Below, in pieces: positions 49,058 to 52,328 of a stretch of 64,000 nucleotides of DNA. The translations under genes were made by a program, and so were the position numbers. Source of the stretch: Bacillota bacterium (lineage in GTDB: Bacteria > Bacillota > Proteinivoracia > UBA4975); NCBI GenBank assembly GCA_012523545.1, contig JAAYIH010000027.1, positions 1-64,000 on the forward strand. The letters run 5' to 3'. The notes under the pieces were generated by a model. That model did not search any database. It was given only the letters and a program-made list of their open reading frames with translations, and was not told the origin of the DNA. The first letter of the stretch is position 1. Each line of letters opens with the position of its first letter.

Positions 49058-50068
49058 GTGCAGATGAACTGGCGCCGCGGTCTGGGCATTTCCCTGACCC
49101 TGAGCATTGTTGTCGCCATGGTTTTGGTCTGGAAAACCTTCGATGAAGGTACGCTGACTAACCTGGGTTTATTGGAGCCCAGGTTTTTGGCGTTGGCGGT
49201 GTTGTTTCTGCTTGTCGCCATTGCCATTGAGGGCCAGCGCATCCGGCTGGTGGCTGCGGCCATGGGCGCGAGGATAAACTGGGCCAGGGGCTGTCTGATC
49301 TTCCTCAGCACCATCTTTGCTGGCCTGGTAACGCCCATGGGCATGGGCGAGATTCCCGCCCTGACCTACCTGTACAACCGGGCAGGGCTGAACCTGGGCG
49401 CATCCCTGGCAGCAGCCATTGTCCGCGGTTTTGTGACCAAGCTGGTGTTCCTGACCGGGATAATCTGGCTCTTTGGGCTGGCCCGGGGCCGTGTGCAGTT
49501 CGGGCCGGTTACCGGGGATCTCTTTACCGTGGTGGCCCTGGTCTTTGCCGCCACCACGGTGTTCAGCGCCGCCTATGTCCTTTTCCCCGGCCTGCTCCAG
49601 GGTCTGTTTGCCAAACTGCCCCGGCGCTGGCAGCAGGGTTTTCTGAGCAAATGGCAACAGCAGCTGGAGCTGGAGGCCCGGGAGTTTGACCGGGGACTGA
49701 GGATTATGTGGGGGCGGGGTCCCTGGAGCCTGTTCCGAATTGCTTTCCTTACACTGGGCTATTGGACTGTCTGGTTTGGCATTCTCCCGGTGCTGGCCCG
49801 GGGCCTGGGGGTTAAGGCCGACCCTGCCCTGCTCATCAGCCGCCAGTTTGCTCTTACCCTCGCCCTTCCCTTTATTCCCGTTCCCGGGGGCAGCGGCGCG
49901 GTGGAGCTGGCCATGGCGGGAATGTACCAGGGGGTTGTGCCCCGCAACGTGCTGGGCATTTTCATCCTCGCCTGGCGCCTGACGACCTATTACCTGCCCC
50001 TGCTCCTGGGCGCCATGGCCGCGCTGGGTTCCCTGTGGGGATACCAAGGCAGGAATACAGAACACTGA
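49058..50068 (+). CDS. UPF0104/LPG-synthase-type integral membrane protein
   Basis: 336 aa with about eight TM helices, matching the flippase-like membrane part of lysylphosphatidylglycerol synthases (AglD-like): GLVTPMGMGEIPALTYLY near residue 90 and PFIPVPGGSGAVELAMAG near residue 270. It lacks the cytosolic aminoacyl-transferase domain, so it should not make lysyl-PG by itself. GTG 49058 is five bases after GGAGGG; ATG 49064 is also possible. Function unknown. Confidence 0.85.
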   Translation: MQMNWRRGLGISLTLSIVVAMVLVWKTFDEGTLTNLGLLEPRFLALAVLFLLVAIAIEGQRIRLVAAAMGARINWARGCLIFLSTIFAGLVTPMGMGEIPALTYLYNRAGLNLGASLAAAIVRGFVTKLVFLTGIIWLFGLARGRVQFGPVTGDLFTVVALVFAATTVFSAAYVLFPGLLQGLFAKLPRRWQQGFLSKWQQQLELEAREFDRGLRIMWGRGPWSLFRIAFLTLGYWTVWFGILPVLARGLGVKADPALLISRQFALTLALPFIPVPGGSGAVELAMAGMYQGVVPRNVLGIFILAWRLTTYYLPLLLGAMAALGSLWGYQGRNTEH

Positions 50069-50098: not shown

Positions 50099-52066
50099 AT
50101 GAATGAACAGTACATATTTGCCATAGACATCGGGACCAGGTCTGTTGTGGGCCTGCTTTGCCGTGCAAAAGAATCCGGCGGCATAAGCGTCGAGCACTGC
50201 ATTGTCCGCCCTCACCCTCAGCGGGCTATGCTGGACGGGCAAATCCACGACGTGGGTCAGGTAAGCGCTGTCATAGCCCAGGTTAAGGAAGCTCTGGAGG
50301 AGAGGGCGGGTTGTACCCTGGACAGGGCGGCCATCGCCGCCGCCGGCCGCGCCCTCACCACCCGGCGCACCGCAGCGGAGTTAAAATTGCCTTCAGCCCG
50401 GGAAATTGGCGAAGGAGATCTGCACAACCTGGAAGTGCTGGTGTTGGCCAAAGCCAAGGAAGAAATGGCCAGGGAGCAGGAATCTCTCTACTGCGTAGGC
50501 TACAGCCCGGTGGCGTACTACATCGACGGCATCAGAATAGACAACCTCCTGGGTCAAAAAGGTAGCAGTATCGGCATTGAAATCATCGCCACTTTTCTGC
50601 CCCAGGTGGTAATCGACGGCCTGTTCAGCGCCCTGGCCAAGGCGGGGCTGGCCGTGGACAGCCTGACCCTGGAACCCATTGCCGCCATGGCGGTGGCGGT
50701 GCCCCCCCATTTGCGCTTTCTCAACCTGGCGCTGGTGGACATCGGCGCCGGAACATCGGACATAGCAGTCAGCCGTCACGGGACCATCATTGCCTACGGA
50801 ATGGTGGACATGGCCGGCGATGAGATTACCGAAGCCATTGCCCAGCATTACCTGCTGGATTTCAATACCGCCGAAGCGGTCAAGGTGGCTCTGAATGAGC
50901 AGGAGCAGGTGGAATTTACCGATGTCCTGGGCAATAAGTATCGGGAAGACAGGGAGAAAATACTGGCGGTAATTGAGCCGGCAGTGGAAAAGCTTTCCCG
51001 GGCCCTGGCCCGGGCCATCAAAGCCAACAACGGCGGCGAATCCCCGGCTGCCCTCTTCTGCGCCGGCGGCGGCAGCCTCACGCCGCTGCTCAGGGATTAC
51101 CTGTCCCTGCACCTGGGCCTGCCGGCGGAACGGATTGGGATTCGCACCCACGCCCATCTGGAGGGCATCGACTACTGCGGCGACGAGCTCATTGGTCCTG
51201 AAGCCATCACGCCGCTGGGTATTGCCCTCACTGCACTTAAACCCCGGGGCGAACAACTGATCCGGGTGTGGGTCAACGGTCAGGAGGTAAGCCTCTACGC
51301 TGTGCAGCAAACCACCGTGGCCCAGGCCCTGTTACACTGCGGAATGGGTCCGGATACCCTGGGCGCGGAGGCAGACAGGCTGGAGTTTACCCTCAACGGC
51401 CGGCGGCGCGTTCTGACCGGGGAGATGGGCAAGGCTGCGACCATTCGCGTTAATGAAATGGAGGCAACCCTGGATACCGAACTGAAAGCGGGGGACCGCA
51501 TCGAAGTTATCCCCGGAACCAGGCCGGAGCTCACGCCAATCACTCTGGGTGAAATCGCGGCGGAATTTGAACCCGTTGCCGTGCAGGTCAACGACACTGA
51601 GCTCCACGTGCCGCTGGTACAAAAGATAAACGGCCTGCCGGCCACTGCCGATACCCCTATTCACCCCGGAGACAATGTGGAGATCAGGCCCCCGGCCAAT
51701 GTAGGCGAACTGGCCGCCATGATGGACCTGGATCTCACCCAACTGGCGGTGACGGTGGACGGAGCGGTTGCCGATCCTTCCACACCCATCACGCCCGCTT
51801 CAGTCATTGCTGTGAGCGCCGTTGCCGGGGTGGCGGCTGCGGCTGCGGTTGCGGACAGCGCCATTGCCGTCACAGTCAACGGGCAGCCCTTTACCCTCCC
51901 CGCCGAGCAGGCGACGCTGTTCTATGCTTTGGCCCAGGCGGGCATCGAGTACGGCGAGGCCCGGGGACACCTGCGCATCACCCTGAACGGGGCAGAGGCG
52001 GATTACACCAGCCCCCTGAAAACCGGGGACAGAATAGAGGTTTTCTGGGTTCGGGAACAACAGTGA
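50099..52066 (+). CDS. FtsA-like actin ATPase with a long repeated beta-grasp-like C-terminal tail
   Basis: 655 aa. Residues 1-390 have the actin-fold ATPase of FtsA: phosphate-1 FAIDIGTRSVVG, an FtsA-type 1C (SHS2) insert at about 75-190, phosphate-2 LVDIGAGTSDIAV and adenosine loop CAGGGSLTPLL. In place of the short FtsA membrane helix, residues 395-655 form repeats, each with VxVNGQ/VND and ending GDxIEV or GDNVEI, as in ThiS/SLBB-type beta-grasp domains. An Ala-rich spacer (AGVAAAAAVADSA) splits the last repeat. Location near atp genes is not that of ftsA-ftsZ, so it is not the division FtsA. Function unknown. Confidence 0.8.
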   Translation: MNEQYIFAIDIGTRSVVGLLCRAKESGGISVEHCIVRPHPQRAMLDGQIHDVGQVSAVIAQVKEALEERAGCTLDRAAIAAAGRALTTRRTAAELKLPSAREIGEGDLHNLEVLVLAKAKEEMAREQESLYCVGYSPVAYYIDGIRIDNLLGQKGSSIGIEIIATFLPQVVIDGLFSALAKAGLAVDSLTLEPIAAMAVAVPPHLRFLNLALVDIGAGTSDIAVSRHGTIIAYGMVDMAGDEITEAIAQHYLLDFNTAEAVKVALNEQEQVEFTDVLGNKYREDREKILAVIEPAVEKLSRALARAIKANNGGESPAALFCAGGGSLTPLLRDYLSLHLGLPAERIGIRTHAHLEGIDYCGDELIGPEAITPLGIALTALKPRGEQLIRVWVNGQEVSLYAVQQTTVAQALLHCGMGPDTLGAEADRLEFTLNGRRRVLTGEMGKAATIRVNEMEATLDTELKAGDRIEVIPGTRPELTPITLGEIAAEFEPVAVQVNDTELHVPLVQKINGLPATADTPIHPGDNVEIRPPANVGELAAMMDLDLTQLAVTVDGAVADPSTPITPASVIAVSAVAGVAAAAAVADSAIAVTVNGQPFTLPAEQATLFYALAQAGIEYGEARGHLRITLNGAEADYTSPLKTGDRIEVFWVREQQ

Positions 52067-52121: not shown

Positions 52122-52328
52122 ATGAAACCTGCACAATGGCTTGAAGTACTCCGCTACCTGTCCCTGATCACCGGCATTGGGGTAACCTTTTGCGCTGCAG
52201 TCCTTTTGGGCTGGCGCTTGGGTTCCGCCCTGGGCGGTTTGTGGGTGGTTCCCGGTCTCCTGGCGGGGATCGGCGCCGGCGTGCTGACGGTGTATTCCCT
52301 GCTCAAGAAATTTTTGCCCGGGGAGTGA
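52122..52328 (+). CDS. atpZ: AtpZ/AtpI-like small membrane protein
   Basis: 68 aa with two TM helices (about residues 10-30 and 38-60) and the Gly-rich pattern of the AtpZ family, which accompanies ATP synthase operons and may aid Mg2+ uptake or rotor assembly. ATG 52122 is nine bases after GGAG; the ORF-track GTG at 52107 lies on that site. First gene of the atp operon. Confidence 0.8.
   Translation: MKPAQWLEVLRYLSLITGIGVTFCAAVLLGWRLGSALGGLWVVPGLLAGIGAGVLTVYSLLKKFLPGE

Follow-up and report, generated by a model that had tools for sequence, protein, structure and literature searches.

Judged from its sequence, the gene at positions 50099..52066 on the forward strand of the window (the whole stretch of 64,000 nucleotides that was analyzed) encodes a second, non-canonical FtsA-class actin ATPase in which a tail of predicted beta-grasp units takes the place of the usual membrane helix. 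The open reading frame (655 amino acids, with the stop included in the coordinates) is real: it has an ATG start behind a good, purine-rich ribosome-binding site (GGGGGG), and 29 homologues were aligned with its product. The component parts of the protein are of known kinds, and their combination and spread appear to be undescribed in the open papers searched. A search of that literature for FtsA with beta-grasp or ubiquitin-like parts and for FtsA paralogues in Clostridia returned nothing relevant, with subscription journals and preprints lying outside its scope. Cell division and shape are poorly known in the phylum's many bacteria outside the Bacillus models. A conserved second FtsA-class actin that has no usual membrane helix, and that lies between minE and rodA in some genomes, would be a missing component; the persistence of the family where canonical FtsA is gone adds to this case, and the proposal is directly testable.

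The gene and its host genome

The window's genome encodes FtsA, FtsZ, two MreB proteins and Spo0A, and a search of the whole genome gave no match to SepF, MinE or FliG_C. As the earlier note had stated, the FtsA-like gene is not beside ftsZ: the ftsQ-ftsA-ftsZ cluster of the same genome is a separate one, located on another contig. On the 3' side of the FtsA-like gene are atpZ (ATG at 52122) and then the ATP synthase genes. A sequence resembling a promoter (TTGCAA-17-TATAAT) lies between the FtsA-like gene and atpZ, so that the FtsA-like gene and the ATP synthase genes need not be co-transcribed, with the reservation that the match is no stronger than chance, a scan yielding about as many by chance. 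The second MreB-type gene, which is Mbl-like (C12:63928-64899, locus L009), is found about 12 kb downstream, on the far side of the ATP synthase genes, where it extends slightly beyond the end of the window.

An actin-like core of the FtsA class

Residues 1–381 (50099..51241, + strand) are, on the evidence of profile comparisons, an ATP-binding actin fold of the FtsA class with a 1C region of the FtsA/PilM type. The TIGR01174 ftsA profile matches residues 6–349 over profile positions 2–347 of 371 (E 7e-28), and the FtsA family PF14450 and the PilM_2 family PF11104 both match all 30 family members. The nucleotide-binding motifs, named PHOSPHATE and ADENOSINE after the general pattern of the actin/Hsp70 fold, are invariant or nearly so in the 30 full-length members. 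They comprise PHOSPHATE-1 (AIDIGTR, residues 8–14, 50120..50140, + strand; D10, G12 and T13 invariant), PHOSPHATE-2 (LVDIGAGTSDIA, residues 212–223, 50732..50767, + strand; D214, G216, A217, G218, T219 and D221 invariant) and ADENOSINE (GGGS, residues 323–326, 51065..51076, + strand; G323 and G324 invariant, G325 and S326 conserved in at least 90%). The earlier note's reading of the core as FtsA-type with its 1C insert retained is supported by an hhalign comparison of the family core with 29 canonical FtsA sequences: the profile-profile alignment runs the full length of the core, spans 363 columns at a probability of 99.9 and includes the FtsA 1C region, which corresponds to approximately residues 84–166 (50348..50596, + strand). 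The equivalent alignment with PilM spans 307 columns. SHS2_FTSA was matched at E ≤ 0.01 in just 4 of the 30 members, and an AlphaFold model of the full-length protein built from five sequences is of poor quality in the core (pLDDT 55).

The family shares its actin-like ATPase motifs and a collinear core with canonical FtsA (TIGR01174/PF14450), but it falls under the orthologue cut-off, forms a separate clade and is unlinked to ftsZ. The TIGR01174 score of the core is 97.7 bits against a cut-off of 175.85, and all of the family members in 61 genomes, among the matches listed, likewise score below it. The relationship to PilM (TIGR01175), the actin-like adaptor of type IV pili, is similar in kind. 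The FtsA-like protein is predicted to be of the same fold class as PilM, with a 1C region, and would likewise be soluble and without a membrane helix of its own, but its core scores 61 bits against a curated cut-off of 133, belongs to a different clade and shows no co-occurrence with pilus genes, and PilM has no tail. In a tree of the cores, the FtsA-like family (support 100/100), canonical FtsA (97/98), PilM and MreB form four separate groups, and the deep joins between these groups are long and not to be trusted.

A tail of beta-grasp units in place of a membrane helix

Canonical FtsA ends in a C-terminal amphipathic helix, whereas the FtsA-like family has a beta-grasp tail of about 200–350 residues instead. 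When the C-termini of 83 family members were compared with those of 29 canonical FtsA proteins, no amphipathic membrane-targeting helix was found in the family: the helical moment is 0.38 versus 0.71 and the mean net charge is -1.1 versus +1.0, as the earlier note's proposal of a tail without such a helix implies. In the window's protein, both sequence profiles and modeling indicate that residues 387–651 contain four beta-grasp units of the ubiquitin/ThiS type. The Pfam ThiS profile matches the tail at E 2.5e-13, above cut-off, and it matches 23 of 30 family members; ThiS, Ub-Mut7C and TGS recur in the tails of these 30. A profile of the strand cassettes, trained on the FtsA-like family itself, detects three copies in the window's protein at 25.8–27.1 bits and a weak fourth at 5.1 bits, all four exceeding the maximum of 4.7 bits reached in 1000 shuffles. 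An AlphaFold model of the tail (five sequences; pLDDT 77, pTM 0.45) contains four beta-grasp-like units. Structure prediction was the test that the earlier note had set for its proposed repeats, and the predicted fold is indeed repeated.

Except where stated, the following elements were placed with the tail model, and all are on the + strand. The tail begins with hairpin HP1 (residues 387–400, 51257..51298; hairpin profile 12.7 bits versus a shuffle maximum of 3.3) and helix 1 (51317..51337), followed by hairpin HP2 (51377..51418; 4.3 bits) between that helix and strand cassette C1 (IRVNEMEATLDTELKAGDRIEVI, 51440..51511; 25.8 bits). Helix 2 (51545..51559) is likewise separated from cassette C2 (51617..51688; 26.8 bits) by a hairpin, HP3 (51575..51610), for which the sequence profile is not significant. 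Helix 3 (51701..51721) then leads to the degenerate cassette C3 (51743..51820; 5.1 bits). The last unit is self-contained and consists of hairpin HP4 (51860..51901; assigned from a profile score of 8.3 bits and the ThiS match at residues 591–649), helix 4 (51917..51937) and cassette C4 (51968..52051; 27.1 bits), which ends in Trp650, a residue that is nearly invariant in the alignment.

A Foldseek search with the tail model returned tetra-ubiquitin chains and bacterial multi-ubiquitin proteins as the best PDB matches (E about 1e-6). Whole-chain TM-scores to these chains are low (0.2–0.3) because the orientation of the units differs, and the search therefore supports the fold of the units and not their arrangement. 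The bacterial multi-ubiquitin proteins (PDB 9d5a, 9cd2, 8u38) and linear polyubiquitin resemble the tail in being chains of ubiquitin folds, but the tail differs in its fusion to an actin ATPase, in the hairpins between helix and cassette and in a sequence identity of only about 10%. Each unit also shares the strand and helix order of ThiS/MoaD/ubiquitin-type proteins (PF02597), but the units are fused in series to the actin core and lack a C-terminal Gly-Gly. This dipeptide was found in none of 84 family members, which argues that the tail is neither a sulfur carrier nor a conjugated modifier. Neither a signal peptide nor a membrane segment is evident, so the tail should be cytoplasmic.

Arrangement of the hairpins and cassettes

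A beta-grasp domain is built in the order hairpin, helix, strand cassette. The FtsA-like tails depart from it in that most units have an extra hairpin between the helix and the cassette, while later units have no leading hairpin of their own. To describe this arrangement, 16 diverse tails (those of 15 relatives and the window's own) were parsed by hand, with the interlocking hypothesis already in mind; automated tagging of hairpins and cassettes in 77–81 tails relied on profiles of 12 and 23 positions, which are too weak, and the hand parse alone was used. Four layouts were seen (HHCC-HC, HHCHCC, HHCHCC-HC and HHCHCHCHCC, where H is a hairpin and C a cassette), and every one of the 16 tails has as many hairpins as cassettes. 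This equality suggests that the beta-grasp domains are interlocked, each hairpin being part of the next domain. Alternatively, the hairpin could be a decoration of the kind found in transcobalamin-type SLBB domains, in which extra strands are inserted between the helix and strand 3 of the beta-grasp (PMC1949818), but such a reading strips the later units of the tail of strands 1 and 2. If the domains are indeed interlocked, the tail would represent an unusual way of making a stiff rod from ubiquitin folds.

Genomic neighborhoods and a proposed role in wall morphogenesis

The earlier note saw no obvious counterpart of the gene in Bacillus; this needs correcting to the extent that counterparts are common outside Bacillus. 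What the note overlooked is a widespread, single-copy family with some members inside an mre/min/rodA operon. Among the 84 loci compared, four from three families (L124, L135, L148 and L157) have the order MreD-PBP2-MinC-MinD-MinE-[FtsA-like gene]-RodA/FtsW, all on one strand; the spacing between the FtsA-like gene and MinE ranges from -14 to 138 nt, and that to RodA/FtsW from -22 to 76 nt. In L157 the FtsA-like gene overlaps called ORFs at both ends. In three other loci mreB lies on the same strand, three genes upstream. Only the min/rod operon indicates a single cellular process through its entire content, and this context agrees with the actin core. Because some members lie inside this wall-building and positioning operon, the protein is probably an unstudied morphogenesis protein. 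Against this reading, 7 of 84 loci show the operon link, which may represent one or two events, and most loci have other neighbors, among them hemL in 16 of the 84.

We tentatively favor the view, at slightly less than an even chance, that the FtsA-like protein is a soluble cytoplasmic adaptor of wall morphogenesis equipped with a docking arm, and not the Z-ring's own anchor. The process served would be cell-wall elongation or the placement of division. The cytoplasmic tail of FtsN sits in the cleft of FtsA between subdomains 1A and 1C, and PilN is bound comparably on PilM (PMC7613929). By analogy, since the FtsA-like protein has the same core and no membrane helix, a bitopic partner could hold it at the membrane, the short cytoplasmic tail of this membrane protein binding the 1A-1C cleft and thereby recruiting it. 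ATP-dependent self-assembly would then arrange the subunits in a row along the membrane, and the chain of beta-grasp units, which is probably interlocked and therefore stiff, may dock partners belonging to the Rod, Min or division machinery. In its most specific form the proposal is of an undescribed cytoskeletal adaptor that couples MreB/RodA/PBP2 elongation to Min-directed division in much of the phylum. Its tail would be a rigid rod whose ubiquitin folds interlock, every domain inserting its hairpin between helix and strands of the preceding one; taken as a whole, this form of the proposal is unlikely to be correct.

Distribution of the family and alternative explanations

The FtsA-like family was detected in 167 of 300 genomes sampled from the phylum, nearly always as a single hit; few genomes have more than one match, and the extra matches look like fragments. 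Canonical FtsA scores over its cut-off in 163 of the same 300. Both proteins are present in 105 genomes, the FtsA-like family only in 62, canonical FtsA only in 58 and neither in 75. The 62 genomes with the family and without canonical FtsA, which keep FtsZ wherever this was checked, and the FtsA-class core with its 1C region both favor an alternative divisome FtsA that would bind the C-terminal peptide of FtsZ, replace the missing canonical protein and reach the membrane through a partner of its tail. We nevertheless regard this role as improbable. The 105 genomes with both proteins include the window's own, where ftsA is beside ftsZ, and the association of the family with canonical FtsA is positive, not negative (odds ratio 2.2, not corrected for kinship). 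In 30 genomes picked mostly for their lack of canonical FtsA, FtsZ was present in all 30 and SepF in 29, the exception being the window's own genome; SepF, which could anchor FtsZ, is thus found in every FtsA-less genome checked. Neither ftsZ nor ftsQ is nearby in any of the 84 loci. The family therefore persists with FtsA, SepF or both at the Z-ring, which speaks against a mere Z-ring anchor.

Other gene distributions were compared in 61 genomes. The FtsA-like family is restricted to genomes with MreB, a pattern that says little since 60 of the 61 have it. Spo0A, present in 54 of the 61, shows no association with the family, and a sporulation role was rejected on this basis. Links to MinE and to the flagellar protein FliG were also discarded, as neither is associated with the family and the window's lineage retains the gene while lacking both. 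The absence of FliG from this lineage also counts against an adaptor of a signaling or chemotaxis-like system, whose tail would dock signaling proteins such as the CheR methyltransferase or an HD-GYP-like phosphodiesterase. CheR is encoded near the FtsA-like gene in 12 of the 84 loci (no more than three genes away in 10 of them) and HD_5 proteins in several, but most loci have neither neighbor, and we find this explanation distinctly unlikely.

Less likely still is the earlier note's idea of an envelope or polysaccharide adaptor that works with a flippase and binds a ligand through its tail in SLBB fashion. In the window, the gene for a TIGR00374/LPG_synthase_TM flippase-like protein (49058..50068, + strand, profile match) does end 30 nt upstream of the FtsA-like gene on the same strand. 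The best named equivalog for its product is a glucosaminyl phosphatidylglycerol flippase, at 54 bits, far below the cut-off of 320. The flippase does not hold up as a meaningful partner, since a homologue is found at position -1 in 7 of 84 loci, all from the window's class, to which the order comEB-flippase-[FtsA-like gene]-ATP synthase is confined. The likeness to SLBB domains proper fares no better. The hairpins between helix and strand 3 do recall the strand inserts of the transcobalamin type (PMC1949818), but no SLBB model is among the 22 Pfam families found in 30 members, where ThiS, Ub-Mut7C and TGS match instead; moreover, SLBB domains are typically found in secreted proteins, whereas this tail is predicted to be cytoplasmic. 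Finally, a role like that of PilM, as an adaptor in type IV pili or in related secretion machinery, is hardly credible despite the PilM_2 matches and the alignment of the core with PilM, since the family occurs in 21 of the 32 genomes (of 61) with PilM over cut-off and in 16 of the 29 without, indicating no link, and no pilus genes were recognized beside the FtsA-like gene.

Viral contigs searched for relatives of the FtsA-like protein contained none. Members in longer frames, of 825–877 residues, were observed in four genomes of one family (G040, G182, G206 and G276 of f32), each of which also has two or three FtsZ-like matches and two SepF matches.
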